Source: a virus. Taken from it: a DNA stretch of 42,500 nt. Each line of letters opens with the position of its first letter. Position 1 is the first letter of the stretch. Made by a program: the position numbers and the translations under genes. The stretch lies in IMG/VR virus record IMGVR_UViG_3300020281_000047, positions 1-42,500 of that record; one strand, 5' to 3'. The notes under the pieces are model-generated. The model saw only the letters and a program-made list of their open reading frames with translations, was not told the DNA's origin and did not search any database. Shown here in pieces: positions 26,185-42,500 of this stretch.

Positions 26185-29100
26185 ATGGCAACCAATTTAA
26201 CTGAAACCACCTTTCCAAGTACGTATAAAGATGATTTTGCCGATAGTGCAAACTTTCATAAGATACTTTTTAATTCAGGTAAAGCACTACAAGCAAGAGA
26301 ATTAACTCAATTACAAACAATATTACAAGACCAAATATCAAAATTTGGTAATAATATATTTAAAGAAGGTGCCGTTGTAAAACCGGGTGGTGCAACAATC
26401 AACCAAAAATATGAGTTCATAAAACTTAATACTACTCTAAATACTCTTCCTACTGATACATCAACATTAGTAGGCACTTCCTTTACAGGCCAATCTTCTG
26501 GTGTTATAGTTAAAGTATTACAGGTAGTGGCTGCAACTGGATCCGATCCTGACACATTGTATGTTCAGTATACTAATACAAGTTCCGGCTCTGCAGGAAC
26601 ATCAACAATAAGAATGACAGCTGGTGAAGATATAAACAATGGATCTATCACATTAACTGTTCAAACTACAAATACCGCTACTAATCCAGCAACCGGAGTT
26701 GGAATATTAATCACACTATTATCTGGTGTCTATTATGCTCGCGGTCATTTTGTATTCACCGAAGATCAATCAAAAATAATTTCAAAATACACTGATGTCG
26801 CAAATACTAGTATAGGATTTAAAGCTGTTGAATCTATTGTTACTGCTGTTGATAATGAAGCATTATTTGATAATCAAGGTGCGGTACCAAATCTCACTGC
26901 ACCGGGTGCAGATCGATACAAAATTGAGTTAACTATTGTCGAAGAAAGCGATGTTGATTCAGATGAAAACTTTATACATGTAGCCACAGTTAAAGATGGT
27001 GTAATTTATAGTGCAGTTAGCCCGAATGATGCATATAATGTACCTAATGAAGTTGTCGCTAGAAGAATATTTGAAAACTCAGGTGACTACTTTGTAAAAC
27101 CATTTACTGCAAGATTTACTTTAGACTCTGCAACAACACACTTAAATTTAGAAGTTAGCCCCGGAACGGCAGTTGTTGAAGGATTTAGAGCATCAAGAGA
27201 CTTTCCTACAACTTTAAGAATAAGCAAAGCAACTGATACTATAACTATTAACAATGATGTTACTGGCACGGACTTTGGTAACTATGTTTTTGTAGATAAT
27301 GGTACATTTGGTGATTCTGCCGCATTCGGCTTGCCAAATATTAACGTATTTGAAAAGTTGGACTTAAAAGATGGACTTGATTATACAGGATCAACTATTG
27401 GTACAGCAAGAGTTAAAGCAATAAACGAAGATGGCACTAATTTAAGATACCATTTATTTGATATACAAATGAATAGCGGTCAAGCTTTTAGAAATGTTAA
27501 GAGTATTGGAACAAGTACATCAAGTTATTTTAGACCTACACTTGAAAATAGTAAAGCTGTTTTAAAAGAAACATCTAGGAACACATCATTATTTGCCTTG
27601 CCTCGTATAAGACCCCAATCACTGACTGATATTTCTTTTGCAGTGCAAAGGCGTTTTACTGCAACTTCTAATGGATCAGGTCAAGCTTCAATATCACTTT
27701 CAGCTACAGGAGAGACATTTACCAACACCGATGATTGGATTGTAGGAACAGATAGTGATGTCTATTTAAATGCATCAATATCAGGAACTGGTAGTACATC
27801 AGCTACTTTAACTGGTTTACCAGCAAGCCAAGCAGTTGAAATACTTGGTTACGTTAATAAAAGTCAAGCTACAATAAAAACAAAAACATTAACCTCACGT
27901 TCAATAACAGTTGGAATTGATTCAGATGGAAATGGTCAAAAATTTGTACCGTTATCTAAAGCTGATATATTTGATGTTGAAGAGATACTAAAAGCTGGTG
28001 ATAGTAATGTTAGTTACGCAAACAGATTTACGCTAGATGATGGACAAAGAGATAATCACTATGCATTAGGAAGATTATTACTTAATGCTGGTCAAAGTGC
28101 TCCAGCTGCATCACCCGGTGTATTCGTAAAATTTAGACACTTTGAACATGGTGTTTCAGGTGATTTCTTTGCAGTTAATTCATATACCGGTCAAGTTACT
28201 TATGATCAAATACCTAAGTATAGATTTTCAAATGGAACTAGGGTGAGACTATATAACTACTTAGACTTCAGATCAGTTATGGATTCAGCTGGAGAATTTT
28301 CTTCTAGTGGAACTGGAGCGAGAGCAATTGAACTTCCTCAACCAACTTCTTTAGTAACAGCTGATGTAACTTACTTCTTACCTCAAGCTGGAAAATTAGT
28401 AATCGATAAAGATGGTATCATAAGAACAGTTTTTGGTCCATCAGGATTTGCTGCAACTAGTCCAGTAAAACCTGCAGGAACATTAGGCTTATACGATTTT
28501 AAGTTAAATGCAAATACATTAAACGATTCAGACATTAAAATGACTAAAATCGAACATAAGCGATTTACTATGAAAGATATTGGTCTACTTGAAAAACGAG
28601 TTGATAAGTTAGAAGAAGTGGCAACATTAAGTGCATTAGAACTTGATACAAAACACTTTCAAGTGTTAGACTCTGCAGGAAATGACAGGACTAAATCTGG
28701 ATTCTTTGTTGATAATTTCTTAGATGCATCTCTTTCTGATACTAGAACAACAAACTATAGAGCTGCTCTTGATCCTCTTGAAAACACCATAAGGCCTGCT
28801 TTTACTGAAGATAATATAAGATTAATTTATGATTCAGCATCATCAACTAATACTATAAGAAAAGGTGATAACATTTACATAGCCTATGATGAGGAACCTT
28901 ATATAAATCAAAATTTAGCAACAAAGTCTATAAACATAAATCCTTTCTCAGTAGTCATATATGAAGGCGTTGTAACATTATCACCTGCTTCTGATGAATG
29001 GAGAGATGTTACAATTAATTCAGAAAGAACTATTGCTGGTGGCTCAAGACTAAGTACAAATTCTGCATATAACTGGGGTAACTGGGCTTGGAACTGGGGT

Positions 29101-30180
29101 GGAGTTCCAGTAGAAAACTTAGGTATAGGAAGTAGAACAAATAATATCGGTGGTACAGTAAATAGAGTCGTAAGTTCAGAAACAGTTCTTGATGTTGTGG
29201 AGGATAGAGTAATACAAACTGCGTTACTGCCGTTTGCGAGATCAAGAAAAGTATTCTTTAAAGCTGATGGATTAAGACCAAACAGTAGAGTGTTTCCAAT
29301 ACTTGATGGTAATAACATAAGTGATTTTACGAGATCAGAAACATTTCAATTTTATTCTGATTATGATTCAGATTTTGGTAATACGTTGAAAGGATTAACT
29401 GCACATCCAGACGGGTCAACAAACTTAACTACTGATGCTAATGGTTCAATATCGGGTTCTTTCATAATACCAAGTAATGATACATTAAAAATAAGATGTG
29501 GAACGCGTGAGTTTAAACTTTTAGATGTAAGTATAGACAATGAACAAGGTGCATCAATTATAGCTAAAGCATCTTATACCATGTTAGGATATTTAGATAC
29601 AGTTGATAGAACTTATGCCTCAACTCGTGTATTAAATGTTCAAGGTTATAGGCCACGTGATAATGCTACTTATGATACTTCAGATAATTCAGGAGATGGT
29701 GGACGAGGACAGTCATTATCAAGAAATAATCAGTCTGGTATCGATGGTCATTGGAGTGTCCAATCTTTTGGAAACCCAGGTGTTGGTAACGAAATTGATG
29801 GTCCTAGCCAAGGTACTAGTGGAAATACTGGTGATCCAAACGGCGGTGGCGGCGCATCAGATGTCGGTGGAGAAGGTGGTGGCTCAGGCGGCACAGGAGG
29901 CACATACATTTGTACTGCTACATTTAATGCCAACTTAATCGACTTTAAACAGTTCAGAGCTTTATCAGTTTACGGTGAAAAGTTAAGACGTACTGATAAA
30001 CATTTAATGAAAGCTTATGATAAGATCGGGCCATGGGTTGCTAAAAAGATGCCAAAGAAGATTGCAAGAAAATTTTCAAGAGCTTACCTATCGGCTCAAT
30101 ATAATAATCCATCAATGTTCTATAAGTTAATAACAGTCACATCACGACCAATAATGAGGTTCATAGGAAGGTTTTTATAA
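26185..30180 (+). CDS. large DUF4815-type virion structural protein, 1331 aa
   Basis: The N-terminal region (FPSTYKDDFADSANFHKILF, GKALQARELTQLQTILQDQI, IFKEGAVVKPGG) matches the DUF4815 virion proteins of marine T4-like phages. The long body is beta-rich with YYARGHFVF and GFRASRDFPTTLRI segments and a coiled-coil-like stretch near 800 (KDIGLLEKRVDKLEEVATL). Near residue 1220 a Gly-rich linker (GGGGASDVGGEGGGSGGTGG) leads to a basic helical end domain (FRALSVYGEKLRRTDKHLMK) of about 90 residues. It is probably a baseplate-proximal fibre or wedge protein in the position of T4 gp10. Its stop overlaps the desaturase start. Confidence 0.8.
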   Translation: MATNLTETTFPSTYKDDFADSANFHKILFNSGKALQARELTQLQTILQDQISKFGNNIFKEGAVVKPGGATINQKYEFIKLNTTLNTLPTDTSTLVGTSFTGQSSGVIVKVLQVVAATGSDPDTLYVQYTNTSSGSAGTSTIRMTAGEDINNGSITLTVQTTNTATNPATGVGILITLLSGVYYARGHFVFTEDQSKIISKYTDVANTSIGFKAVESIVTAVDNEALFDNQGAVPNLTAPGADRYKIELTIVEESDVDSDENFIHVATVKDGVIYSAVSPNDAYNVPNEVVARRIFENSGDYFVKPFTARFTLDSATTHLNLEVSPGTAVVEGFRASRDFPTTLRISKATDTITINNDVTGTDFGNYVFVDNGTFGDSAAFGLPNINVFEKLDLKDGLDYTGSTIGTARVKAINEDGTNLRYHLFDIQMNSGQAFRNVKSIGTSTSSYFRPTLENSKAVLKETSRNTSLFALPRIRPQSLTDISFAVQRRFTATSNGSGQASISLSATGETFTNTDDWIVGTDSDVYLNASISGTGSTSATLTGLPASQAVEILGYVNKSQATIKTKTLTSRSITVGIDSDGNGQKFVPLSKADIFDVEEILKAGDSNVSYANRFTLDDGQRDNHYALGRLLLNAGQSAPAASPGVFVKFRHFEHGVSGDFFAVNSYTGQVTYDQIPKYRFSNGTRVRLYNYLDFRSVMDSAGEFSSSGTGARAIELPQPTSLVTADVTYFLPQAGKLVIDKDGIIRTVFGPSGFAATSPVKPAGTLGLYDFKLNANTLNDSDIKMTKIEHKRFTMKDIGLLEKRVDKLEEVATLSALELDTKHFQVLDSAGNDRTKSGFFVDNFLDASLSDTRTTNYRAALDPLENTIRPAFTEDNIRLIYDSASSTNTIRKGDNIYIAYDEEPYINQNLATKSININPFSVVIYEGVVTLSPASDEWRDVTINSERTIAGGSRLSTNSAYNWGNWAWNWGGVPVENLGIGSRTNNIGGTVNRVVSSETVLDVVEDRVIQTALLPFARSRKVFFKADGLRPNSRVFPILDGNNISDFTRSETFQFYSDYDSDFGNTLKGLTAHPDGSTNLTTDANGSISGSFIIPSNDTLKIRCGTREFKLLDVSIDNEQGASIIAKASYTMLGYLDTVDRTYASTRVLNVQGYRPRDNATYDTSDNSGDGGRGQSLSRNNQSGIDGHWSVQSFGNPGVGNEIDGPSQGTSGNTGDPNGGGGASDVGGEGGGSGGTGGTYICTATFNANLIDFKQFRALSVYGEKLRRTDKHLMKAYDKIGPWVAKKMPKKIARKFSRAYLSAQYNNPSMFYKLITVTSRPIMRFIGRFL

Positions 30181-30950
30181 TGAGAAGAATATTTGAAAGT
30201 TCTGGAATAAAATTAAGATTACTGCTTTTACTTAATGTATTTGCATCAGTATCTTTTATTTTATTTTATGGAATGACTTTAACTAATATAGTTACCGTAA
30301 GTGCAATGTATTTTTTATTCATGGCAGTAGGAATGGTTTCAACTTTTCATAGATTTTATTCACATAAATCATTTGAATTTAGAAATAAATTTTTAGAATA
30401 CTTTTGTACATCATTAGGTTTACTATCAGGATCAGGTTCAGTGTTTGGTTGGTGTGCAGTTCATAATAAGCATCATGATAAACATGACACACCTGAAGAT
30501 CCTCATGATCCAAATAGAGGCTTACTAAGTTTATTAACATTAAATTATGATTATAATATTGAATTAAAATACGTTAAGTACTTATTTAAAAATAAATTTC
30601 TTATGTTTACTCATAAGTATTATTACTTACTAATAATATCATATATCGGATTACTTTATTCGTTATTTGGTCTTCAAGGTATAATTTTCGGATTTTGCAT
30701 GCCATCTGCATTATGTGTGGTTGGGCAGGGTATGACAACATATTTCTTACATAAAGATGGAAATCCGCAGTGTGTGCGATGGATGAATTTTTTAGTATTT
30801 GGAGATGGCAATCACAGTGAGCACCATCAAAACACTAAGAAATATAAGTTAAAATATGATGACGTATCAGGCTGGATCATAGAAAACTTATTAATTAGTA
30901 GTAGTATAAATATAGCAGATGCTGTGAAAAGGAATTACAAATGGCAATAA
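30180..30950 (+). CDS. membrane fatty-acid (acyl) desaturase
   Basis: A 256-aa integral-membrane diiron desaturase of the stearoyl/acyl-lipid delta-9 type. All three histidine boxes are intact: His57-x4-His62 (HRFYSH), His95-x2-His98-His99 (HNKHH) and His212-x2-His215-His216 (HSEHH). Hydrophobic spans lie at about 12-32, 38-56, 150-172 and 175-195. It would introduce a double bond in host acyl chains, raising membrane fluidity. Desaturases are known auxiliary genes of marine cyanophages. The unusual point is the location: it overlaps the DUF4815 gene (TAATG) and the next virion gene (10 bases), so it is expressed late with the baseplate genes. No truncation is visible. Confidence 0.9.
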   Translation: MRRIFESSGIKLRLLLLLNVFASVSFILFYGMTLTNIVTVSAMYFLFMAVGMVSTFHRFYSHKSFEFRNKFLEYFCTSLGLLSGSGSVFGWCAVHNKHHDKHDTPEDPHDPNRGLLSLLTLNYDYNIELKYVKYLFKNKFLMFTHKYYYLLIISYIGLLYSLFGLQGIIFGFCMPSALCVVGQGMTTYFLHKDGNPQCVRWMNFLVFGDGNHSEHHQNTKKYKLKYDDVSGWIIENLLISSSINIADAVKRNYKWQ

Positions 30951-32512
30951 CCACTCTCGGATATCAAGTAAATAAACAACCTATAGCTCAATCGTTTTAT
31001 ATTAACGAAAGAAACGGAATATATTGTACAAAAGTTGAATTATTCTTTGCAGCAAAAGATGCATCATTGCCGGTTCAAATACAAATAAGACCAATGATTA
31101 ACGGTTTTCCATCTTCTAATAAAATCATACCAGGGACTACAAAAATGTTACCAGCTGGTAGCGTTAATGTTGATACAACAGGTCCTGCGCTAACCTCAAC
31201 AGTATTTACATTTGATGAACCAATATTTTTAAAAGGACAGGAAGATTATGCTCTGGTTGTAATAGCAGATTCGAAAGACTATAGAATTTATGTTTCTGAA
31301 ATTAATGAATTTCAGTTTGGTTCAACTGAAAGAAGAGTTAACAAACAACCAGACTTAGGTAGCTTATTCTTTTCACAAAATGGTGTTACTTGGACTGCAT
31401 CACAAAATGAAGATTTAGCATTTATTATACATCAAGCCAAATTTAAACACACATCAGCAACCGCCATATTACACAATGCTTCAGTGCCAAAAAAGAAACT
31501 TTTACCAGATCCCTTTACAGTTGTATCAGGTGATGCAACCGTAACAACTAAACATATAGGCCATGGATTACAAGTTGGAAATGCTATTGAAATTTCAGGT
31601 GCCACTGCAACTGGAGGAATAAGTGCATCGAGTTTGAATGGTAGAAGAACAATTACTCATGTTGACTGGACAGGATATAAATTTGAAGCTGATTCGGCAG
31701 CAGACTCTGATGCGATAGCTGGCGGTTCTGCAGTATTAGCTACAAAAAATATTCCATATAGTTTAATTTATCCTATTACACAAACTATAATTCCAAGAGA
31801 CACCGACTTAGCTTCGTCTATTAAAGCAACCACTGGAAAATCTTTTGCTGGAACAGAAACATCATTTCAAAAACAATCTACATTTCAAGGTGTAAAGCTT
31901 AATGAAAATAACCAAGCAGCTGAACCATACATAATTGCATTTGACAGCGCTGAAACTGCTGAACTTGGTGCTGGTGTTAAATCATTTGATATGCAATTAA
32001 AAATGGCGACTGCAGACTCAAACGTATCACCTGTTATTGACTTACAAAGAACTTCAATATCATTAGTTAATAATCTAATTGATAAGCAAGATTCATCTTC
32101 AACATCTGGTTTTAACGTACCTTTAACATATATCGATGAAACATCAGCAACTGGTGGAAGTTCTGCTGCAAAACATTTAACAAAAGTAGTTACACTTGAA
32201 AATGATGCAGTTGGTCTTAAAGTTTTATTAACTGCCAATAGGCCAAATGGAACAGATTTTTTACTGTATTTTAGAACCGGCACAGGTGATGAAGTCTTAA
32301 ATGAAAAACCTTTTACTTTACAAGCACCTGAAACCACTCTACCTACTGATGAAAATACACAAGTATTTAGAGATTATAGATACTTAATAGGTGGACAAAA
32401 TGGAGTCTTACCTGCATTTACTAAGTTTCAAGTAAAAATTGTGTTTAGAAGTATTAGTAGTGCTAAGGTTCCAAGAATTAGAGACTTAAGGATTATTGCA
32501 TTGAGTGTATAA
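30941..32512 (+). CDS. virion structural protein, 523 aa
   Basis: A 523-aa beta-rich protein. PIAQSFYINERNGIYCTKVE, IQIRPMINGFPSSNKIIPG, YALVVIADSKDYRIYVSE and SLFFSQNGVTWTASQNEDLA form a block I associate with marine T4-like virion proteins next to or fused with the DUF4815 protein. Here it is a separate gene behind the desaturase, with AAAGGA inside the desaturase end as ribosome binding site. The C terminus (FTKFQVKIVFRSISSAKVPR) is beta. Probably a baseplate or fibre attachment protein. Confidence 0.78.
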   Translation: MAITTLGYQVNKQPIAQSFYINERNGIYCTKVELFFAAKDASLPVQIQIRPMINGFPSSNKIIPGTTKMLPAGSVNVDTTGPALTSTVFTFDEPIFLKGQEDYALVVIADSKDYRIYVSEINEFQFGSTERRVNKQPDLGSLFFSQNGVTWTASQNEDLAFIIHQAKFKHTSATAILHNASVPKKKLLPDPFTVVSGDATVTTKHIGHGLQVGNAIEISGATATGGISASSLNGRRTITHVDWTGYKFEADSAADSDAIAGGSAVLATKNIPYSLIYPITQTIIPRDTDLASSIKATTGKSFAGTETSFQKQSTFQGVKLNENNQAAEPYIIAFDSAETAELGAGVKSFDMQLKMATADSNVSPVIDLQRTSISLVNNLIDKQDSSSTSGFNVPLTYIDETSATGGSSAAKHLTKVVTLENDAVGLKVLLTANRPNGTDFLLYFRTGTGDEVLNEKPFTLQAPETTLPTDENTQVFRDYRYLIGGQNGVLPAFTKFQVKIVFRSISSAKVPRIRDLRIIALSV

Positions 32513-33259: not shown

Positions 33260-34285
33260 ATGGCGGACATAGTCCTAAAACAGACATCTTCAGGTGGTGT
33301 TATTCAGGAGATGGATTCTTCCGATAAGGGCTATATTTCTCATGTTATTCTTACAGATTTCAACTCTCTTGACTCCGGCGTAGGTACACTATCTGTAAAT
33401 CCAGCATCAACAACTGGTTTAACTCTAATAGGTTCTTTCGTTGATACAAAAAGGAATGATGCAGTAGGTACTCATCCTGTTTCTTCTGGTGCAATAACAA
33501 CTGTTTCCACTTTTAATTTTTATCAAGACTTAGGAAGTGATAGTGAATTTATAACTGATGCTATAAGACCAGTGGCACTTGATGGCTCAGCAGATATACA
33601 ACGCATGTCTGATTCAGAAGTCAATGATGATTTTGTTCGCGACATACAGCAAGACATTTATGAAGGTGGAGTAGGAAGTTATAGACTACAACCATCTGCG
33701 CCAACTGACGGTACTTGGGTAAGTAAGGGAACTATTACTAATACTAAAGTATCTGGTGGTTCCAATTCTTCACAACTTTGGAGAAAATCCGCACCAGCAT
33801 CCACGCCTACCACTGTAAGACCTTTAAAATTTGTAGTCAGTAATGGTTCATTAAGAGAAATGACTGATACAGAAATTAAAAAATTTACTCCAAGACTAAG
33901 AAACAGAATAGTAGCAAATGGAATAGGAACTTATAAAGTACAGGCAAGTGCACCAACCAGTGGTGGAACATGGGTACAACTAGGCGATGCTTTTACAGAT
34001 ACAAGGCATGAAGTGGCCAATCAAACTTACACACAAAATTTTTCGAATACGTTTTCTAATACTTTTACTAATACGTTTGCAGGTTTTTTTAGTTCTAACT
34101 ATAATAGATTTGCACCGTTTAGTGGTGCATTTCAAGGTAGTTTTTCCGGAAGTAGAACTAAATTTTTTACTGGTACATTTACTGGTTTCTTTACTGGTTT
34201 CTTTACTGGGTCATTTACAGGCTTAACTGTACAATCATCAACTGAAAATGTTACTGAAGCAAAATTATGGGTGAGAGTCGCTTAA
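33260..34285 (+). CDS. virion protein with internal duplication and F-T-G repeats, 341 aa
   Basis: Two copies of a domain are visible. Copy one, about residues 100-160, contains MSDSEVNDDFVRDIQQDIYE then GVGSYRLQPSAPTDGTWV; copy two, about 188-248, contains MTDTEIKKFTPRLRNRIVAN then GIGTYKVQASAPTSGGTWV. Residues about 259-322 are a low-complexity tract of F-S-N-T-F and F-T-G-x-F repeats, then a short C-terminal strand. Marine phage proteins with aromatic-Thr-Gly repeats of this sort are known only as structural proteins. Likely part of the distal baseplate or a fibre tip. Confidence 0.75.
   Translation: MADIVLKQTSSGGVIQEMDSSDKGYISHVILTDFNSLDSGVGTLSVNPASTTGLTLIGSFVDTKRNDAVGTHPVSSGAITTVSTFNFYQDLGSDSEFITDAIRPVALDGSADIQRMSDSEVNDDFVRDIQQDIYEGGVGSYRLQPSAPTDGTWVSKGTITNTKVSGGSNSSQLWRKSAPASTPTTVRPLKFVVSNGSLREMTDTEIKKFTPRLRNRIVANGIGTYKVQASAPTSGGTWVQLGDAFTDTRHEVANQTYTQNFSNTFSNTFTNTFAGFFSSNYNRFAPFSGAFQGSFSGSRTKFFTGTFTGFFTGFFTGSFTGLTVQSSTENVTEAKLWVRVA
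34036..34227 (+). repeat. F-N-T / F-T-G coding tandem repeat
   Basis: In-frame low-complexity repeat inside the 341-aa gene: TTTTCTAATACT-type units first, then TTTACTGG-type units of 12-18 bases encoding alternating Phe and Thr-Gly. It is short and close to identical over TTTACTGGTTTC copies, so it may change length by slippage. Confidence 0.6.
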
Positions 34286-34303: not shown

Positions 34304-34720
34304 ATGAAAAGAACTATTAAAAATCCCTATTGGGGCAATGACGAGAAAACTCAAGTCATGTGTGAGTTTCATTTCGAAAATGGACCTATACAGACTGCTG
34401 CTGTAACTCAGACAAAAGAAGGCAATCCTGATTGGGAAGAAATATTTCAAAATTTTTCTATAGAAGAAATAGATAAGTTAACTGAAAATGCTTTATCCGA
34501 GGCTCGTGAAGAACACGAAAAAAGAAAACAACAAGAAAAAGATGATATTGAAAGAATGAAAGTGGATGCTTTGTTTCAAGCTAAACTCGATGCTTTTGAT
34601 ATTGATATTATTAAAAATTCAAAAAATAGACAACTCAAATCTAGGATAAGAAAAGCTAAAACGTTACTTGAAGTAACTGCATTTGCATCTGCACTTATAA
34701 CTTTAGAACATGAAAAATAA
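34304..34720 (+). CDS. unknown helical protein, 138 aa
   Basis: ATG 34304 is chosen (GGAG at 34294-34297, 6-base spacing); an in-frame TTG at 34292 overlaps that site. The N terminus (MKRTIKNPYWGNDEKTQVMC, EFHFENGP) is beta, followed by a long charged helix with EEHEKRKQQEKDDIERMKV and a small helical end domain. From memory similar proteins sit among marine T4-like fibre genes; a fibre assembly chaperone is one option, but this is a guess. It overlaps the glycosyltransferase gene by 11 bases. Confidence 0.72.
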   Translation: MKRTIKNPYWGNDEKTQVMCEFHFENGPIQTAAVTQTKEGNPDWEEIFQNFSIEEIDKLTENALSEAREEHEKRKQQEKDDIERMKVDALFQAKLDAFDIDIIKNSKNRQLKSRIRKAKTLLEVTAFASALITLEHEK

Positions 34721-35405
34721 CGGATTTATTTACGTAGCAAGTAATTACAAAGAATTTATACAAGCAGCAAGATTTTCAGCAACAAGTCTTAAAGATTATT
34801 GGCCTGAAGCAGACATTACGCTGTTCACTCATCCTGAATGGGTAAAAGAAAGTGATAGCAATTTATTTAATACTATCATAACAAAAGATGTTCCTTATCA
34901 TAAAAGAGCAAAGCTTTGGGCTTTAGATAAAACTCCATATAATTTAACATGTTATATAGATGCTGACACTTATATTGAGCATGAAGATATACGAAATATA
35001 TTTGAACAACATGACATAGAGTCTGATATAACAATAACAAAAGCAAGAAGATACGCTGCATCCATAGAATCAAAATTTAAAGGTGGCCAGCTTATAGATC
35101 ATTGTGGATTGTTCATATATAATAATGAAGCACAAACTCTTAATTTCATGAAACAGTGGTGGCTTTTATATTGTAAACAAGATGAAGGCAAATGGAATTG
35201 GGACACTGATTTATATCCAGAATATTTAAGAAAATGGGACATGTGGACTTATTGGTGGTTACAAAATAAAACAGAACATAAAATTAAAAGGTCTTACTTT
35301 CCACATCCAGACGCTAGATGGAATTTTGTTTGTGTATATGATGAAAAAGAACTTGATGGCCAAGAAGCCGTAATATATCATCAACCTGTACCGAGAAAAA
35401 AATGA
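34710..35405 (+). CDS. GT-A-fold glycosyltransferase-like protein
   Basis: A 231-aa soluble protein. FIYVASNYKEFIQAARFSAT, SLKDYWPEADITLFTHPEW and RAKLWALDKTPYNLTCYIDA lead to the metal/nucleotide-sugar DxD motif Asp84-Ala-Asp86 (YIDADTYI). HCGLFIYNN and WDMWTYWWLQN follow, as in GT8-like and phage nucleotide-diphospho-sugar transferases. It is coupled on both sides (11-base overlap with the 138-aa gene, ATGA with the oxygenase gene), so it is expressed with the fibre operon. The acceptor is unknown; a fibre protein or host surface glycan is likely from context. Confidence 0.75.
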   Translation: MKNNGFIYVASNYKEFIQAARFSATSLKDYWPEADITLFTHPEWVKESDSNLFNTIITKDVPYHKRAKLWALDKTPYNLTCYIDADTYIEHEDIRNIFEQHDIESDITITKARRYAASIESKFKGGQLIDHCGLFIYNNEAQTLNFMKQWWLLYCKQDEGKWNWDTDLYPEYLRKWDMWTYWWLQNKTEHKIKRSYFPHPDARWNFVCVYDEKELDGQEAVIYHQPVPRKK

Positions 35406-36016
35406 ATAATTTAGAAATAAAAAATAAAGATCTAATTAACTTGTTAAATGACTATTCTAGTTGGTTTGAAAGTGTTGATAAATCTTTAATAAAAGTTCAA
35501 GGCGAAAAAGATGAGAATGAATATTATACAAGTAATGAATATCTTGAAACAATAGATAAAAAGAACCATGAGGGATTTCCAGAAAAAACACATGGCATTG
35601 ATTTAGTTTTTTGTGATTCCACAAATGACGAAATAAGAAAAAGGATAAGACAAGTTGATTTAGATTTTAATAGTGTATTAGGCTCTAAACATTGTGCAGT
35701 AAAAATGTATTATCCAGAAGGTGGTTACATGGGCTGGCACAATAATCATAATGCTCACGGTTATAATATATTATTTTCATATACTAAAAATGGAAAAGGT
35801 TTTTTTAGATTTCAAGATACAACGGTACCTACAAAAATAACGATAGATGATAGACCGGGTTGGACCGCAAAAGTTGGTTATTATGGAAGCAATAATGAAC
35901 CAGATAAATTATTCTGGCATTGTGCAAGAGCTTATGAAGATAGACTCACTCTAGGATTTGTTATACCCAATGAAGACTTTTGGAAAATGATGATAGAAGA
36001 TATCGAATCAGAATAA
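35402..36016 (+). CDS. 2OG-Fe(II) oxygenase-like protein, 204 aa
   Basis: The probable iron facial triad and 2-oxoglutarate anchor are His113-x-Asn115 in MGWHNN, His173 in FWHCARA and Arg181 in EDRLTLGF; Asn in place of the usual Asp/Glu is seen in phage members of this group from memory. Between them, GYNILFSYTKNGKGFFRFQD is the jelly-roll part. It could hydroxylate a protein or sugar. It overlaps the glycosyltransferase gene by ATGA, and its stop overlaps by 9 bases the stop of the convergent gene, leaving no room for a terminator. Confidence 0.68.
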   Translation: MNNLEIKNKDLINLLNDYSSWFESVDKSLIKVQGEKDENEYYTSNEYLETIDKKNHEGFPEKTHGIDLVFCDSTNDEIRKRIRQVDLDFNSVLGSKHCAVKMYYPEGGYMGWHNNHNAHGYNILFSYTKNGKGFFRFQDTTVPTKITIDDRPGWTAKVGYYGSNNEPDKLFWHCARAYEDRLTLGFVIPNEDFWKMMIEDIESE

Positions 36017-36610
36017 TCCAATAACCATAAACCTACTATAAGTTTCCATGTTCTGTGTACCTGAATATAATATTTTGTTTAGACCACTTTTTTCTATAAG
36101 CTCTTCTTTTGAATTAACACAATTAGTATGATCATCTACATCAAATAAATTGTTACTTTGTAGAGCAAACACGCATGATTTATTATATGATTTATTTTTT
36201 ATAAGATCAAGTAAATCAGGCATGTGTTCAGAAGAAGTATTGATAACTAAGTCTATATCTTTAAAATCACCAGAAACTTCTAAGACATTGGCATATAAAG
36301 ATTTAACATAATTATGATTAAAATAAAATTCAGAAAATCGATTACATGTTCTTGTAGCAGTTCTATCAAAATCAATATTAAGTAAACTTTTTATCTTATA
36401 TGTTTTATCCAAATAATCAATGATTGGATATCCGAACCAGCCACCATACAAATGAATATTTTCAAAATCTCTTGGTACTTCAATCAGTTTACGTATTAAC
36501 CATTTTTTACATAAAAGTTGTTTTGGTGACACACTTTGTATATATTCTTTTATCTTATCTGGATATCTTCTATAAAACCAACCAAGACTTTCGCTGTACC
36601 TTTCGTCCAT
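36008..36610 (-). CDS. SAM-methyltransferase-like small protein, 200 aa
   Basis: A 200-aa protein with a Rossmann-like order: IHLYGGWFGYP (glycine loop at the first strand), SLLNIDFDRTA (acidic end of strand two), SLYANVLE, then DIDLVINTSSEHMPDL at the strand-four catalytic position and CVFALQSNN. This resembles class I methyltransferase-like proteins of marine T4-like phages. The glycine motif is unusual (GGWFGYP), so activity is uncertain. It is the last gene of the - strand island and meets the oxygenase gene tail to tail. Confidence 0.65.
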   Translation of the reverse strand: MDERYSESLGWFYRRYPDKIKEYIQSVSPKQLLCKKWLIRKLIEVPRDFENIHLYGGWFGYPIIDYLDKTYKIKSLLNIDFDRTATRTCNRFSEFYFNHNYVKSLYANVLEVSGDFKDIDLVINTSSEHMPDLLDLIKNKSYNKSCVFALQSNNLFDVDDHTNCVNSKEELIEKSGLNKILYSGTQNMETYSRFMVIGLF

Positions 36611-37329
36611 TAATCACTCCAATATTTTTCAAAGCCAATATACGCATCATCATCGATACCTTCTCCTCCAAATGGCTTATCCATCTTCCACTTATTAAAT
36701 ATACATATTTTATAATTTTCATCATAAAATAAATTCTTTTTAGATTCATACCACCACATTTGTTTTTCGTCCATACCATGAAGCCTAGAGTATATTTCTT
36801 TTTTAGGAAAAAAGTTTAGTATGTTTTTATGATGAAAATATAAGTATGAATCCATACCTTGATACTTACACATAAAATAATCTGGTTGATCATAAAATTC
36901 TTTCCAAACTTGAGTGCAGTCACCTTTCCAAATCATAACAGAAGAATTTAAATCCATATCATAACCCGGCGATTGTGGTTTTAAGTTTCTTGCATGAGGT
37001 TTCCAATAAGCCTTTATAGTTCTTATTTTATTATCATCACATAAACTTATATAGTTAGAAATATCACGTTGTATAACAATATCTAAATCTAAAAACATAG
37101 TAGGTTCATCAGCTATGTTTTCGAATAAAGTTAATTTCCACCACCACTTTTCTAAATCATACTCTTGTTTTAAAGGATATATTTTAATCTCTTCATTAAT
37201 TTGTGAAGAATTTTCTGTGTAACATATAAATTTAAAATTATGAGTAAAGTTCTTTTTAACCATTTTATATAATCGATTAACATGTTCATGGCTAAATTTT
37301 GTTCCCCATTTTAAGCATACTATATTCAT
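36610..37329 (-). CDS. GT-A-fold glycosyltransferase-like protein
   Basis: A 239-aa protein starting MNIVCLKWGTKFSHEHVNRL, with FKFICYTENS, KWWWKLTLFEN and the DxD motif Asp81-Leu-Asp83 in MFLDLDIVI, then SSVMIWKGD, GMDSYLYFHH and a C-terminal IFNKWKMDKPF. It is a paralogue of the protein at 37681, with which it shares KWG-x-KYS/KFS-x5-NRLY, the LDLDI motif, the VNSS/LNSS element and a D-x-YL(Y)F. A nucleotide-sugar transferase; acceptor unknown. It overlaps the neighbours by one and four bases. Confidence 0.75.
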   Translation of the reverse strand: MNIVCLKWGTKFSHEHVNRLYKMVKKNFTHNFKFICYTENSSQINEEIKIYPLKQEYDLEKWWWKLTLFENIADEPTMFLDLDIVIQRDISNYISLCDDNKIRTIKAYWKPHARNLKPQSPGYDMDLNSSVMIWKGDCTQVWKEFYDQPDYFMCKYQGMDSYLYFHHKNILNFFPKKEIYSRLHGMDEKQMWWYESKKNLFYDENYKICIFNKWKMDKPFGGEGIDDDAYIGFEKYWSD

Positions 37330-37757
37330 GTATAAAAAACTTTCAATGTTGGATAATGGCTGTGAGTAAAAGTTTCATAATCTAAATCCGGTATATGTGT
37401 TGTGCAATTTCCAGAATGTAAGTTACCATTTCTTAACTTTGATAACTCTACTACTATGATATGATTATGATTAGGAAACTTTAAATTCATAGGATATAGT
37501 TTTTCGCCATGAAAAGTTATGATAGTTTTTTCTTTAATAGTCACATCATCAAATATTACATCTTTATTTTCATAATTTAAAAACATGTCTCTATCTATTA
37601 TTCTCTTAGGATTTAATGATTCTGCAAAATCTTTCCAGTTATTACCCGGAGCTACTACAGTTATGTCATCGTAAGAGTTTTCAATTATTAATAATTTTAT
37701 TAAGCTCATAGCTTGACCAAATCTCTCGTACCCAGTCATTTGCTTCATGCAATTCAT
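37326..37757 (-). CDS. small unknown protein, possibly related to the 36008 protein
   Basis: A 143-aa protein. SLIKLLIIENSYDDITVVAP and VIFDDVTIKEKTIITFHGEK give a Rossmann-like strand order, and TIITFHGEKLYPM resembles LVINTSSEHMPDL of the 36008 protein at the same relative place; the end TLKVFYT parallels KILYSGTQ there. I infer a shortened relative lacking the N-terminal SAM-binding half. Start ATG 37757 is supported by AAAGGA 11 bases before it but overlaps the upstream glycosyltransferase by 77 bases; ATG 37709 is the alternative start. Confidence 0.6.
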   Translation of the reverse strand: MNCMKQMTGYERFGQAMSLIKLLIIENSYDDITVVAPGNNWKDFAESLNPKRIIDRDMFLNYENKDVIFDDVTIKEKTIITFHGEKLYPMNLKFPNHNHIIVVELSKLRNGNLHSGNCTTHIPDLDYETFTHSHYPTLKVFYT

Positions 37758-38409
37758 AAGCTGAATTATCCTTTAAATGCGATGTGTTAAATATGCAGCA
37801 TACTGCAGATTCATTATAAGTTTTATTAAAATTATAATTATAAAACAATCCTTCTTTCCAAAATGATAAATGATTTTTTCTATAGTGTTGATAAAATAAA
37901 TATTTGTCTAGTGATTTATATGTATAGAATGCATATTTACTTTTATCTACTAATGAATCATAGATATGTTCACCTTGATTATCTTTCCATTTTACAAAAG
38001 AACTGTTTACAAAACATTGTCCACCTCTTCCATATTGATGCTTCATTAACTCTTTAGTGTATGTCCAATAGTTCCATATGAAAACAGGTTTAGTTGTTTC
38101 TTTTTCTATTATTTCAGTGATATCATTATGTATTAATATGTCTAAATCAAGCCAAACATTTAATCCTCTATTAAATTTTTTAAACAACACAAGTTTCTCA
38201 CGAGTAAAAACTCTGTCTTTCGGATAGTCAAACGTATCAAAAGTATCATAATCAATAATTTGTATATTCTTATTGATTTCTTTATTATTATCTGTTATGC
38301 AAGTAAAAGTAAATTTATTTTTATAAAATTTGCAAATGGAACTATATAATCTATTTACATACTTCGAAGAATACTTGTTACCCCACTTAAAAACAAAAAA
38401 ATTAGTCAC
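37681..38409 (-). CDS. GT-A-fold glycosyltransferase-like protein
   Basis: A 242-aa protein starting MTNFFVFKWGNKYSSKYVNR, then FTFTCITDN, FTREKLVLFKKF and the DxD motif Asp88-Leu-Asp90 in VWLDLDILI; RGGQCFVNSSFVKW and SLDKYLFYQHY follow. It is clearly a paralogue of the 36610 protein. It is very Lys/Asn/Tyr-rich, in line with the low G+C of this island. It overlaps the radical SAM gene by 8 bases, so the genes are cotranscribed. Confidence 0.75.
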   Translation of the reverse strand: MTNFFVFKWGNKYSSKYVNRLYSSICKFYKNKFTFTCITDNNKEINKNIQIIDYDTFDTFDYPKDRVFTREKLVLFKKFNRGLNVWLDLDILIHNDITEIIEKETTKPVFIWNYWTYTKELMKHQYGRGGQCFVNSSFVKWKDNQGEHIYDSLVDKSKYAFYTYKSLDKYLFYQHYRKNHLSFWKEGLFYNYNFNKTYNESAVCCIFNTSHLKDNSAYELHEANDWVREIWSSYELNKIINN

Positions 38410-39100
38410 TAGTCCATATTTCTCTTATTGGCTCACCTTCATGAAATGTGACATTACTTTTACTAGGAGGTTCTATCCAATCAGGTTTTATTTTTTTATT
38501 ATTAATGATTATAGGTTTTTCAACTTGCCATCTATTTGACTTTAATAAAACAAAAGAAAGTTTATATTTTGATGCTATTTTTATTGCCTTAGGTATTTGG
38601 TGTTCATTGTGCTTAAAAGGAATAAATTGCCAACTTATAAAATGTTTTTTTGATCCTAGCAACATTGCTTTAAATGCTGATAAAAATTTTTGTCCTATTC
38701 TATGAAGCTCGACTGTTTTTTGATCTATACCATCTATTCCAAATGTCCATTTAACGTTATTAACTTCAAATGCTTCTTTCCAAAATTTTAATTTTTTTCC
38801 AGAGCCATTAGTATGAACACCAATTAGATTAGAATTTTGTTCTGCATACTTTAAATATTTTATAAACTCAGGGTGATATATAGGATCACTAAGTTGTCCA
38901 CATAGATGAATTCTCTTAAATGTTTTACTTATTTTTTTAAAATCATCAAACGGCATATCACGTGATCTTTTTATTTTTTCTTTACCAGTTTCTCTTTGAC
39001 GCATACAAAATACACATTGTAAAATACACTTGTTAGTTAAGTCTATATTTACAGAAGATTTTAATGCAGCACTTAAATAATCATTATAAAATTCACGCAT
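38402..39100 (-). CDS. radical SAM core protein, 232 aa
   Basis: The 4Fe-4S/SAM motif is Cys25-x3-Cys29-x2-Cys32 (KCILQCVFCMRQ), placed after SSVNIDLTNK as in standard radical SAM enzymes. RIHLCGQLSDPIYHPEFIKY contains a GE-like second motif and LIGVHTNGSG, WTFGIDGID the following strands of the partial TIM barrel. The chain stops after the barrel, without a C-terminal auxiliary Fe-S domain. The next gene upstream encodes a SPASM-like protein and overlaps by 8 bases, suggesting the two act together. The substrate is unknown. Confidence 0.85.
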   Translation of the reverse strand: MREFYNDYLSAALKSSVNIDLTNKCILQCVFCMRQRETGKEKIKRSRDMPFDDFKKISKTFKRIHLCGQLSDPIYHPEFIKYLKYAEQNSNLIGVHTNGSGKKLKFWKEAFEVNNVKWTFGIDGIDQKTVELHRIGQKFLSAFKAMLLGSKKHFISWQFIPFKHNEHQIPKAIKIASKYKLSFVLLKSNRWQVEKPIIINNKKIKPDWIEPPSKSNVTFHEGEPIREIWTSD

Positions 39101-39443
39101 TTTTTAAATCTTTATGATAAAATTGAGGCTCATTACATTTTCTTTTACAGACATCAGGTGCTGTATGTGGTTCTTCTAATAGAATTTTATGAAATGTATA
39201 CCATTCCGGTGATTGTAGTATTTCACTATATATATCATCTACATTAGATAGTTTTAAATCTTCTTCGTATAAACCAAGTAACTCAAATTGTTGTCTTATT
39301 TTAGGTTGATCTCTATCACACCAACAACAAGGTAATAGATAACCTTCGGCGGTGTAAGCTACTCCTTTAACATGAGGATTTTTAATTTTTTTATTATTTT
39401 CGTTCCAATATGGATGGCATTTAGGATATAATTTATTAGTCAT
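39093..39443 (-). CDS. stand-alone SPASM-like Fe-S protein, 116 aa
   Basis: VKGVAYTAEGYLLPCCWCDR resembles the opening of SPASM/twitch auxiliary-cluster domains, where a strand-turn (xxxxGxxxPCC) precedes the cluster cysteines. Here Cys9, Cys39, Cys40, Cys42, Cys99 and Cys103 (VCKRKC) are the candidate ligands. The middle (LSNVDDIYSEILQSPEW, YTFHKILLEEP) is also SPASM-like. It is the first gene of the - strand island. Its ATG lies 5 bases after a - strand TATAAATA and has no ribosome binding site. I infer that it is the detached auxiliary domain of the radical SAM protein. Confidence 0.72.
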   Translation of the reverse strand: MTNKLYPKCHPYWNENNKKIKNPHVKGVAYTAEGYLLPCCWCDRDQPKIRQQFELLGLYEEDLKLSNVDDIYSEILQSPEWYTFHKILLEEPHTAPDVCKRKCNEPQFYHKDLKNA

Positions 39444-39448
39444 GAATT

Positions 39449-39456
39449 TATTTATA
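39449..39456 (-). promoter_or_regulatory. late promoter of the - strand modification island
   Basis: TATAAATA on the - strand, then AATTC and the ATG of the SPASM-like gene. It is the only promoter-like site at the head of the six-gene - strand block. The RNA would start at or beside the ATG. It lies 12 bases from the + strand octamer. Confidence 0.55.
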
Positions 39457-39468
39457 AAACCTAATTTG

Positions 39469-39476
39469 TATAAATA
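39469..39476 (+). promoter_or_regulatory. late promoter for the terminal fibre genes
   Basis: TATAAATA 50 bases before ATG 39527, back to back with the - strand octamer. The leader contains GGCAGGGGCGTACGCGTCCG, a small GC-rich stretch with the palindrome GTACGC/GCGTAC-like ends, and AAGGAAC as ribosome binding site. Confidence 0.65.
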
Positions 39477-39526: not shown

Positions 39527-39877
39527 ATGGCCCAATATCACGAATTTACCTTGGATCAAGGTACAGACACCACTATAGAACTTCATTTAGTTGACACAAA
39601 CGGAGCCGCTAAGAACCTATTAGGCTATACTGTATCAGGTAGAATTAAGAAGAACTATAACAGTGATAGTTCTGACACCACTGTATTTACTACACAAATT
39701 ACGAGTAATACTGAAGGTACAGCAACTCTATCTCTTACCAATACACAAACTAATGCCATGAAAGCCGGAAGGCATGTCTATGATGTTGAAATAGCTCACG
39801 ATGATAGTTCGGGCAACACTATCGTTGAAAGAGTTCTTGAAGGCCGAATACAAGTAACTCCGTCAGTAACTAAATGA
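39527..39877 (+). CDS. BppU-like/Ig-like structural protein, 116 aa
   Basis: A single beta-sandwich domain. FTLDQGTDTTIELHLVDTNG, AAKNLLGYTVSGRIKKNY, TEGTATLSLTNTQTNAMKAG and HVYDVEIAHDDSSGN follow the layout of the N-terminal domain of phage BppU-type baseplate/fibre proteins (strand - Asp-Gly-x2-x-dLtG - strand - Y-d-ve). It precedes the long fibre gene by 7 bases and shares its late promoter, so it is probably a fibre base or attachment protein. Confidence 0.75.
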   Translation: MAQYHEFTLDQGTDTTIELHLVDTNGAAKNLLGYTVSGRIKKNYNSDSSDTTVFTTQITSNTEGTATLSLTNTQTNAMKAGRHVYDVEIAHDDSSGNTIVERVLEGRIQVTPSVTK

Positions 39878-39884
39878 GGAAATA

Positions 39885-42500
39885 ATGGCAATTAAGGTCA
39901 CAACCGGTCAACAAACCTTCATAAAAAAGATTGTCATTGGAACACCAATTTCCACTGCACAAACTGGATTGTCTATCGATAATTTTTCAGACTTTAGTGT
40001 TGCGACTAAATCTGATGGTCAGGTACTCGTATATGATTCTGCTGAAGGCGCATTTAAAAATTATGACTTTTTAGTTGATAATGGTTTAGCAAAAGCGTTT
40101 ACTCCCGGTACAGATAAACTACTATTAAGAATTGATTCTGATAAAACTCCAGTGATGACTGGATTACAAACTAAGGGTCACATAGTACCGACTCTTGATA
40201 GTACATTTGACTTAGGTGACAGTGCCAAAAAATTTAAAGACCTATATTTAAGTGGTGGAACAATACATCTTGGTGGAATTGACTTAAAAGATTCAGGCGG
40301 AACCTTTGGTGCAAAAGACAGCACTGGTTCTCCAGTAAATATTGACTTACAAGGTTCTATCGCTCAAATAAGAGAAATGTTTGCTAGTGGTGGTGATTTA
40401 ACTTATGACACTGGAACTGGTATATTTCAATTTGATGTTGAGCAAGTCTACACCAAAGAAAACTTTGACTCTGACTTTAATGTAACACTTGATAGCGCTG
40501 TACTTGAAGGTGTAGGTTTAACTTATAATAATGCAACAAATACTTTAAGTATCGATTCTTCAGAACTAGAAGCTAACTTTAAACAAGACATACGTGGTTA
40601 TTTTAGCTCAGGTGGTGACTTATCATATAATGCTTCTACAGGTCAGTTTAGTTTTGATGTAGAACAAGTTTATACGAGAGCAAACTTCGAATCAGACTTA
40701 GGTGAGGCAGTTGACGGCGGTGTGGGTATTGCATTTGATTCAGCCACTGATACTATAAGAATCGACTCATCAGAGCTATCATCATTTTTCAGACAAGACA
40801 TTAGAGGTTACATAAGTGCCACAGACGCAGGTGGTGACGGATCTTTCTCATACAACTCTGGAACTGGTGTATTCACTTACACTGGTCCAAGTCCTGCCGA
40901 AGTAAGAGCACATCTATCGGTTACTGACGCCGGTGGAGATGGTGCGTTTGCTTATAACAGTAGCACTGGAGTATTTACATATACTGGACCGAGTGCCACT
41001 GAAGTAAGAGCTCATTTGGCGGCTGTTGATGCAGGCGGTGATGGAAGTTTTTCATATGATAGTTCAACTGGTGCATATACTTATACAGGACCAAGTGCAG
41101 CTGAAGTACGAGCACATATGGCAGTTGTTGATAATGGCGGTGACGGATCATTAACTTATGATTCTTCTACTGGTACATATACTTATACTGGTCCTTCAGC
41201 ATCAGAAGTAAGAGCACACTTTTCTGCAGGTGAAGGTATTGACATATCATCAGGTGAAATATCTGGAGAAGATGCCACAACATCTAATAAAGGCATAGCA
41301 TCATTTAACACTGAACACTTTAGCGTATCTTCAGGCGCAGTAAGTATAAAAACAGACGGTATTGATGATACACATATCGACTTTGGTACCGGAACAAATC
41401 AAGTTAGCACAGCAGATATACCTGAACAAACGAACTTATATTATACCGTAGCAAGAAGTGATTCTGATTTTGATAAAAACTTAGACTCGGCTTCAACAGA
41501 CAAGTTAAGTGAAGGTTCTAATAACTTATATTATACTGTTGCCAGAAGTGATTCAGACTTTGATAAGAACCTTGATTCTGCAAGTACCGATAAACTTTCT
41601 GAAGGTTCTAATAATCTTTACTATACGGTTGCAAGAGCAGATAGTGCGGCAAAAGCTGCATTATTAGGTGGAACTGGTGTAACATATGACTCATCAACTG
41701 GTGTCATTGCAATAGGACAACCGGTTGCAACTACTGATAACGTTACATTTAATCAGGTAAGAGGTCCTGCAGAATTTATAATAGATCCTGCAACTGTAGG
41801 CGATAATACTGGTACAGTTAAGATACTTGGTAACTTACAAGTTGAAGGTACGCAAACAGTAATTAATTCTACCACAGTAAGTATAAATGATAAGAACATA
41901 GTACTTGCAGATTCTGCTGCAGATGCTGCAGCTGCCGATGGTGCAGGTATAACAATAAATGGTGCATCAGCCACACTTACGTATTCAGCATCTGGTGATA
42001 AGTTTGTATTTAATAAACCTTTCGAAGGTCAGTACTTAGGATTTGACTCTGACTTCGACTCAGCACTTGGCACTAAAACTACTAGTGATGTAGCAGAAGG
42101 CACTAATCTCTATTATACGGTTGCACGTAGTGATTCAGACTTTGATAAGAACTTAGACTCAGCTTCAACAGATAAGTTAAGTGAAGGTTCGACTAACTTA
42201 TACTACACAGTTGCTAGAAGTGATTCTGATTTTGATAAGAACTTAGACTCTGCATCAACTGATAAGCTATCCGAAGGAACCACTAATCTTTATTATACTG
42301 TAGCAAGAAGCGATTCAGACTTCGATAAAAACTTGGATTCAGCTTCGACTGATAAACTTTCAGAAGGTACCACTAATCTTTACTATACAACAGCACGTGC
42401 TGATAGTGATGCTAAAGCTTCATTACTTGCAATAGATGCTGGCGGTGACGGATCATTTACATATGATTCTGCTACCGGTGTAATGACATACACTGGACCA
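39885..42500 (+). CDS. long repetitive tail-fibre protein (5' part, runs off the window)
   Basis: From ATG 39885 (GAGGAAATA as binding site) an open frame continues without stop for 872 codons to the window end. The N terminus carries a fibre-base type domain with LDSTFDLGDSAKKFKDLYLS, a segment common in marine phage fibres. Then come several repeat families: two SGGDL-[TS]-Y units ending FDVEQVYT, four 34-residue DAGGDG...EVRAH units, and 30-residue NLYYTVARSDSDFDKNLDSA units, and a domain QVEGTQTVINSTTVSINDKN. This is a trimeric beta-structured shaft of a long fibre, probably carrying the receptor-binding tip beyond the window. Repeats are conserved in protein but vary in synonymous bases. 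Confidence 0.88.
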   Translation, partial: MAIKVTTGQQTFIKKIVIGTPISTAQTGLSIDNFSDFSVATKSDGQVLVYDSAEGAFKNYDFLVDNGLAKAFTPGTDKLLLRIDSDKTPVMTGLQTKGHIVPTLDSTFDLGDSAKKFKDLYLSGGTIHLGGIDLKDSGGTFGAKDSTGSPVNIDLQGSIAQIREMFASGGDLTYDTGTGIFQFDVEQVYTKENFDSDFNVTLDSAVLEGVGLTYNNATNTLSIDSSELEANFKQDIRGYFSSGGDLSYNASTGQFSFDVEQVYTRANFESDLGEAVDGGVGIAFDSATDTIRIDSSELSSFFRQDIRGYISATDAGGDGSFSYNSGTGVFTYTGPSPAEVRAHLSVTDAGGDGAFAYNSSTGVFTYTGPSATEVRAHLAAVDAGGDGSFSYDSSTGAYTYTGPSAAEVRAHMAVVDNGGDGSLTYDSSTGTYTYTGPSASEVRAHFSAGEGIDISSGEISGEDATTSNKGIASFNTEHFSVSSGAVSIKTDGIDDTHIDFGTGTNQVSTADIPEQTNLYYTVARSDSDFDKNLDSASTDKLSEGSNNLYYTVARSDSDFDKNLDSASTDKLSEGSNNLYYTVARADSAAKAALLGGTGVTYDSSTGVIAIGQPVATTDNVTFNQVRGPAEFIIDPATVGDNTGTVKILGNLQVEGTQTVINSTTVSINDKNIVLADSAADAAAADGAGITINGASATLTYSASGDKFVFNKPFEGQYLGFDSDFDSALGTKTTSDVAEGTNLYYTVARSDSDFDKNLDSASTDKLSEGSTNLYYTVARSDSDFDKNLDSASTDKLSEGTTNLYYTVARSDSDFDKNLDSASTDKLSEGTTNLYYTTARADSDAKASLLAIDAGGDGSFTYDSATGVMTYTGP
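40824..41231 (+). repeat. four in-frame 102-bp repeats in the fibre gene
   Basis: Units start at 40824, 40926, 41028 and 41130, each encoding 34 residues with D-A/N-GGDGSF-x-Y...TG...YTGPS...EVRAH. A further copy begins at 42435 and runs off the window. Confidence 0.85.
41433..41642 (+). repeat. 90-bp repeats in the fibre gene, first block
   Basis: Units start at 41433, 41523 and 41613 (the last partial), each encoding 30 residues: NLYYTVARSDSDFDKNLDSA plus STDKLSEGSN. Confidence 0.85.
42105..42410 (+). repeat. 90-bp repeats in the fibre gene, second block
   Basis: Units of the same 30-residue family start at 42105, 42195, 42285 and 42375 (partial), separated from the first block by a unique QVEGTQTVINSTTV domain. 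Confidence 0.85.

Follow-up and report, generated by a model that had tools for sequence, protein, structure and literature searches.

Putative late-expressed enzymes encoded beside a repeat fibre in a T4-like aquatic phage, with the fibre as their possible substrate

The viral record IMGVR_UViG_3300020281_000047 is a fragment of a genome, 42,500 bases long, all of which was analysed and is called the window here; it was assigned to a T4-like myovirus because it carries genes for ribonucleotide reductase, a gp32-like single-stranded DNA-binding protein, tail tube, DNA end protector, baseplate wedge and VrlC-like proteins. Comparison of its fibre region with those of relatives indicates that a repeat fibre, a small protein (u34304), a glycosyltransferase (GT1) and an oxygenase-fold protein (OXY) form a locked unit, an anatomy that was not found described in the literature searched and that we consider new. 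Whether the enzymes of this region, expressed late, decorate the repeat fibre within the host recognition region of this aquatic phage is in our estimate evenly balanced; the fibre is favoured as substrate because its link to GT1 and OXY is reciprocal and because all three are jointly absent elsewhere. The original prediction began the island at 34710 and treated eight genes (34710-39443) as one pathway. All eight open reading frames (ORFs) lie at the coordinates previously given, and the neighbourhoods of relatives confirm that island genes do travel together, but the conserved unit starts upstream, at the fibre, and the genes are better described as a fibre-locked core, a co-inherited pair (MT and GT2) and swappable accessory genes. 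The fibre and the genes that follow it are:

33260-34285, plus strand: repeat fibre (FIBREP family), two similar N-terminal domains and then period-4 repeats of the [YF][TS]G[NTS] type
34304-34720, plus strand: u34304, a small coiled-coil-like protein locked in place upstream of GT1, a possible assembly factor for the fibre
34710-35405, plus strand: GT1, a predicted GT8-like glycosyltransferase, DxD motif with invariant D84 and D86
35402-36016, plus strand: OXY, a predicted 2-oxoglutarate (2OG)-oxygenase-fold protein, HxN...H...R motif (H113, N115, H173, R181)
36008-36610, minus strand: MT, predicted class I methyltransferase fold, motifs GGWxG, DxD, INTSxEH and QSNN
36610-37329, minus strand: GT2, a predicted GT8-like glycosyltransferase (phrog_1962, 6e-14), apparently co-inherited with MT
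37326-37757, minus strand: S143, no family assigned, with a relative in phage locus L094
37681-38409, minus strand: GT3, predicted GT8-like, a GT2 paralogue (phrog_1962, 0.0012), GTG start
38402-39100, minus strand: radical S-adenosylmethionine (SAM) core protein, CxxxCxxC motif, C-terminal SPASM region absent
39093-39443, minus strand: SPASM-like iron-sulphur protein in a gene of its own, five invariant cysteines

Single-protein and alignment scans yielded about 250 loci, each scan keeping its best 80, and near-identical GT1s were removed before linkage was counted, which removes the effect of relatedness only in part. The linkage is reciprocal, having been obtained from two independent scans, one starting from GT1 and the other from the fibre. 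In the fibre-family scan (75 loci examined of 157 matches reported), u34304 and GT1 lay downstream of every non-redundant repeat fibre listed (72/72). Starting from non-redundant GT1 loci, u34304 was found upstream in 40 of 40 and OXY downstream in 43 of 43, and a repeat fibre lay at most 3.5 kb from GT1 in 38 of 40, the remaining two being giant fibres that reach further. The order in relatives is repeat fibre, u34304, GT1, OXY, a stretch of further genes (among them MT and GT8-like genes, in many cases encoded on the other strand), an LtfC-like gene and a long fibre.

The isolate collection, searched in full, gave one phage, C48C1 (OQ984149), as the sole match to GT1 and likewise to the fibre; on this phage our literature search, of incomplete coverage, returned nothing. 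C48C1 retains the locked core at about 28-34% identity and in the same order as the window (repeat fibre, u34304, GT1, OXY, LtfC-like gene); however, its fibre is about ten times longer, a single protein of 3347 amino acids (aa) with about 210 repeat units, and OXY is followed by the LtfC-like gene without an intervening MT/GT2/radical SAM block. The fibre regions of S-PM2, S-CAM3, HTVC008M, Melnitz and Mosig contain no match to GT1, OXY or the fibre family, nor any ORF with eight or more repeat units, in a comparison of presence and absence that thus spans six phages only. Over 1999 repeat units of the fibre family, position 1 is Tyr or Phe (Tyr in 69%), followed by Thr or Ser (66%), Gly (77%) and, at position 4, Asn, Thr or Ser (66%), and the repeats are therefore rich in hydroxyl acceptors.

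Beyond the core, composition varies. Among loci with at least 2.5 kb of downstream sequence, MT is present in 38 of 41 and GT8-like genes in 40 of 41; with at least 5 kb downstream, both are found in 22 of 22, and the split radical SAM/SPASM-like pair in five of the 22. Distance correlations over 35 loci, controlled for VrlC, gave partial r values of 0.91 for MT-GT2, 0.57 for GT1-MT, 0.55 for GT1-GT2 and 0.53 for GT1-OXY. On these comparisons MT and GT2 appear to be a co-inherited pair that is nearly always present, and the split pair, S143 and GT3 behave as swappable accessory genes. The accessory genes of other islands include further 2OG oxygenases and a carbamoyltransferase, as well as nitroreductase-like, PP-loop and acyl-carrier-like proteins; in the phage enzyme island of L094 (16383-17509) the acyl-carrier-like protein stands beside an asparagine-synthase-like one, with a desaturase relative nearby. 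Inheritance of the eight genes as one pathway was rejected, several of them being missing from most relatives.

The three glycosyltransferases that had been proposed, GT1, GT2 and GT3, are supported as GT8-like by invariant DxD motifs (D81 and D83 in GT2 and GT3) together with profile similarity to GT8 that is weak: glycogenin at 0.015 for GT1, and LgtC, a lipo-oligosaccharide galactosyltransferase, as the best PDB profile match of GT2 and GT3, also weak at 0.0024. None of the three had a match in Pfam. GT2 and GT3 are 34% identical, and GT3 as a single sequence had no matches in a scan of viral contigs or in tblastn against isolate phages. In locus L093 (4096-6288), a 731-aa protein resembles GT3 at its N-terminus and matches SPASM weakly towards its C-terminal end.

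In its structure model (predicted local distance difference test, pLDDT, 89.7), OXY folds as a double-stranded beta-helix like 2OG oxygenases, so the oxygenase predicted at this position is borne out as a fold. Foldseek matched the model to PolD, prolyl hydroxylases and AlkB (E value 4.8e-5, with modest TM-scores), and protein prolyl hydroxylases are among the nearest solved structures. H113 and H173 are invariant, as is R181, the conserved Arg after the second His; but 2OG/Fe(II) oxygenases have HxD/E...H as iron ligands, and OXY has HxN, N115 replacing Asp or Glu in all 21 sequences aligned. Because N115 stands where an iron ligand is expected, we name OXY a 2OG-oxygenase-fold protein only and do not claim catalytic membership in the 2OG/Fe(II) superfamily. 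Sequence searches with OXY gave no useful match in Pfam and only chance-level matches in a PDB profile search.

Two methyltransferase-like proteins had been expected. A Rossmann-like fold of class I SAM-dependent methyltransferases is supported for MT by its structure model (pLDDT 93.6; Foldseek E value 2.6e-8, TM about 0.6) and by a profile match to spermidine synthase (2.9e-4). S143 shares the motif register by eye, but hhalign gave a probability of 0.3%, and its candidacy as a second methyltransferase was rejected. S143 is nevertheless probably a real gene, since L094 encodes a protein 33% identical to it that likewise sits between GT2 and GT3 and has an overlap of ~80 nucleotides (nt); a single-sequence scan of viral contigs and tblastn against isolate phages gave no matches to it. 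In phage contigs L012, L013, L016, L035-L041, L047, L051 and L052, members of the MT family adjoin radical SAM proteins of greater length (about 360 aa); GT1 and OXY were undetected within the stretch examined of these contigs.

The predicted radical SAM/SPASM pair is supported, which brings the assignments upheld to seven of eight. The radical SAM protein scores above the curated cut-off of Pfam PF04055 (1.2e-7, 32.5 bits against 29.5), with C25, C29 and C32 of its CxxxCxxC motif invariant, whereas its partner falls below that of PF13186 (0.0049, 17.6 bits against 21.5) and is for that reason called SPASM-like only. A SPASM domain has seven cysteines for two auxiliary clusters; five are invariant here in ten relatives (C9, C39, C40, C99 and C103). 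The two genes are adjacent in the loci listed and nearly always overlap, with the SPASM-like gene either first or second, and this adjacency in both gene orders speaks for distinct polypeptides acting in partnership. If that is true, the pair would exemplify, in compact form, an auxiliary-cluster partner made as a separate protein. The SPASM-like protein found no matches in a single-sequence scan of viral contigs (its relatives were identified in loci retrieved through other genes) or in tblastn against isolate phages, and a PDB profile search of its family gave chance matches only; the literature search, again of incomplete coverage, turned up no phage with a radical SAM/SPASM pair split in this way. 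A similar split pair occurs among bacterial-looking neighbours in two Hyphomicrobiales contigs from metagenome-assembled genomes (MAGs), L178 (5297-6246) and L179 (5282-6246), which look chromosomal. The other two of the four loci found as cellular relatives of the split pair, L177 and L180, labelled Rhodobacteraceae and Flavobacteriales, resemble phage DNA and look like phage contigs placed in MAGs: L177 is closely similar to viral contig L081, and L180 has the same enzyme families and, by eye, an apparent neck gene.

The minus-strand block had been predicted to begin at a late-type TATAAATA, and such a sequence is present there, forming with a second copy a divergent pair between the block and the LtfC-like gene:

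39449-39456, minus strand: late-promoter-like TATAAATA, 6 nt from the ATG of the minus-strand block
39469-39476, plus strand: late-promoter-like TATAAATA, before the LtfC-like gene

The number of copies in the window is that expected by chance (eight against 7.6), but seven of the eight lie at most 60 nt upstream of a gene start on the same strand, the highest such fraction among 54 8-mers of equal composition (mean 6.8%). The relatives listed have TATAAAT in the same intergenic place, on one or both strands. From this non-random placement before gene starts we infer that the island is expressed late, in keeping with the original prediction. Another minus-strand copy, at 11391-11398, is likewise 6 nt from a start codon, and use of either minus-strand site would give a leaderless transcript.

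The genes are packed closely, though not, as had been stated, joined by short overlaps throughout. On the plus strand, u34304 and GT1 overlap by 11 nt and GT1 and OXY by 4 nt; OXY and MT converge with an overlap of 9 nt; and on the minus strand the overlaps are 1 nt (MT/GT2), 4 nt (GT2/S143), 8 nt (GT3/radical SAM) and 8 nt (radical SAM/SPASM-like), but 77 nt between S143 and GT3. G+C is 28.0% in the island and 33.8% in the window as a whole, and the AT-rich segment pointed out earlier (38521-38580) indeed has 23.3%, although 8.4% of all 60-nt windows are equally low. G+C at third codon positions is ordinary, the range of the island genes (0.13-0.23) agreeing with that of structural and fibre genes (0.14-0.28); AT-richness thus reflects amino-acid composition, enzyme versus fibre, and not foreign codon usage, and a recent import of foreign DNA was rejected as the origin of the island.

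By the mechanism that we propose, the repeat fibre would be made together with GT1 and OXY. GT1 would glycosylate the repeats on Ser/Thr (or Tyr), OXY would oxidise fibre residues or the sugar already attached, GT2 and GT3 would lengthen the glycan, and methylation by MT would cap it; the split pair may add a further, lineage-specific modification, and, as accessory enzymes turn over, related phages would be able to vary the fibre surface. Observed are the gene content, the folds predicted, the reciprocal linkage, the inheritance in modules and where the promoter-like sites lie; the fibre as substrate, the order of the steps and their benefit are what we infer. The fuller proposal is a dedicated system of fibre post-translational modification: Tyr/Phe-Ser/Thr-Gly repeats would be acted on by glycosyltransferases, a methyltransferase, the oxygenase-fold protein and, in certain lineages, a two-protein radical SAM/SPASM-like enzyme, and enzyme turnover would diversify the fibre surface. 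It is offered tentatively, with the balance somewhat against it.

Several points weigh against decoration of the fibre. Lipopolysaccharide is often acted on by GT8 enzymes. The partial r of fibre and GT1 is modest (0.36), and conserved order can reflect shared ancestry; because ancestry could maintain gene order, our confidence stays at an even balance. HxN in place of HxD/E makes iron binding by OXY uncertain, an obvious Pro or Lys acceptor is absent from the fibre repeats, and Tyr is not a general acceptor because the repeats in the window are mostly of the Phe type. No sugar-nucleotide gene was identified in the window. Finally, passages on such islands in PMC7029224 prefer modification of the host O-chain.

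Those passages describe the hypervariable host recognition cluster (HRC) of T4-like marine phages, for which glycosyltransferases and radical SAM cassettes are reported (PMC7029224). The combination had been thought unfamiliar as a phage cassette, but that paper already describes islands of this type, with such enzymes, as the HRC of pelagimyophages. Like the HRCs of pelagimyophages and cyanomyophages, the island of the window lies downstream of VrlC, has fibres, GT8-like genes and radical SAM and varies among relatives; the HRC ends at the neck gene gp14, whereas the window stops inside the long fibre at 42500, and the HRC passages of that paper make no mention of a unit of repeat fibre, u34304, GT1 and OXY. 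The island of the Pelagibacter phage Mosig (MT647606, about 54.7-74.6 kb) is likewise situated between VrlC and fibres and shares relatives of MT, GT2, the split pair and a fatty acid (FA) desaturase, but it is larger, otherwise composed and without GT1, OXY or a repeat fibre, with a weak u34304-like match only. T4-like cyanophages also carry clusters of mixed modification enzymes, but of another set (halogenase, 2OG oxygenases, carbamoyltransferases and glycosyltransferases), read as decorating polysaccharide or making a secondary metabolite (PMC7824862). Mycobacteriophages such as Che8 have phage glycosyltransferases and glycans on structural proteins (Freeman et al. 2023, via PMC11256854); Che8 is unrelated, its glycosylated protein is the major capsid protein, and the portion of PMC11256854 on this phage mentions no oxygenase-fold or radical SAM partner.

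As the main alternative, the enzymes might remodel host surface glycans (O-chain or other) late in infection, blocking superinfection or sparing virions from binding debris, which is the published reading of such islands (in the PMC7029224 passages, and for the cyanophage clusters in PMC7824862). This is possible but on the whole unlikely: GT8-like enzymes, with LgtC the best PDB profile match for GT2 and GT3, would suit it, and accessory genes differ among relatives as receptor-altering genes would, but it leaves unexplained both the lock of GT1 and OXY to one repeat fibre in every locus and their lack in isolates without that fibre, and the island yielded neither a membrane gene nor a sugar-nucleotide gene. 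An improbable alternative is a mixed cassette, with GT1 and OXY serving the fibre and MT, GT2, GT3, S143 and the radical SAM pair acting on a host glycan or small molecule, the two sets having only their late-expressed location in common. The two blocks on opposite strands, the tightness of MT-GT2 as an inherited unit of its own (partial r 0.91) and the core without a minus-strand block in C48C1 are consistent with such a division, but GT1-MT (0.57) and GT1-GT2 (0.55) also correlate beyond VrlC, and MT and GT8-like genes occur in nearly all long loci. As it overlaps our explanation, it would narrow fibre decoration and not overturn it.

Radical SAM/SPASM proteins often modify peptides, and the product of the cassette could in principle be a modified peptide that diffuses, or a secondary metabolite, the split pair then being the peptide-modifying enzyme. 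We regard this as very improbable: carbamoyltransferase, acyl-carrier-like and PP-loop proteins in the islands of relatives, and the metabolite suggested for a cyanophage cluster (PMC7824862), would fit, but the pair is optional (5/22 long loci), and no precursor peptide gene or exporter was recognised, the search of short ORFs not being exhaustive. Linkage without functional meaning, the genes being neighbours by descent in one phage lineage, is hardly credible, for although all loci are from T4-like relatives, scans keep the best 80 matches and structural gene order is conserved generally, neighbours turn over or invert while fibre-u34304-GT1-OXY stays constant down to 28-34% identity.

The surroundings of the island in the window are:

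26185-30180 and 30941-32512: VrlC-like genes, upstream of the fibre and enzyme region
39527-39877, plus strand: LtfC-like beta-sandwich protein (L-shaped tail fibre attachment family, below cut-off), the downstream border of the cassette
39885-42500, plus strand: long fibre, extending past the end of the record

VrlC is split into two genes in the window and its close relatives, and appears to be one long ORF in other relatives. An FA_desaturase-like gene (30180-30950; Pfam 4e-13) lies between the two VrlC-like genes and has relatives in the Mosig island and in L094. By gp6, the closest isolate is C48C1 (42%), followed by the OM43 phage Melnitz (36%) and the Pelagibacter phage HTVC008M (35%). 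A tRNA search of the window found none.

If decoration of the fibre is true, fibre sequences would not suffice to read the receptor-binding apparatus in this common group of aquatic phages, since the products of neighbouring enzyme genes would complete it chemically. The glycosyltransferases of fibre islands, so far read mainly as modifiers of the host surface, would then gain a testable substrate in the virion.

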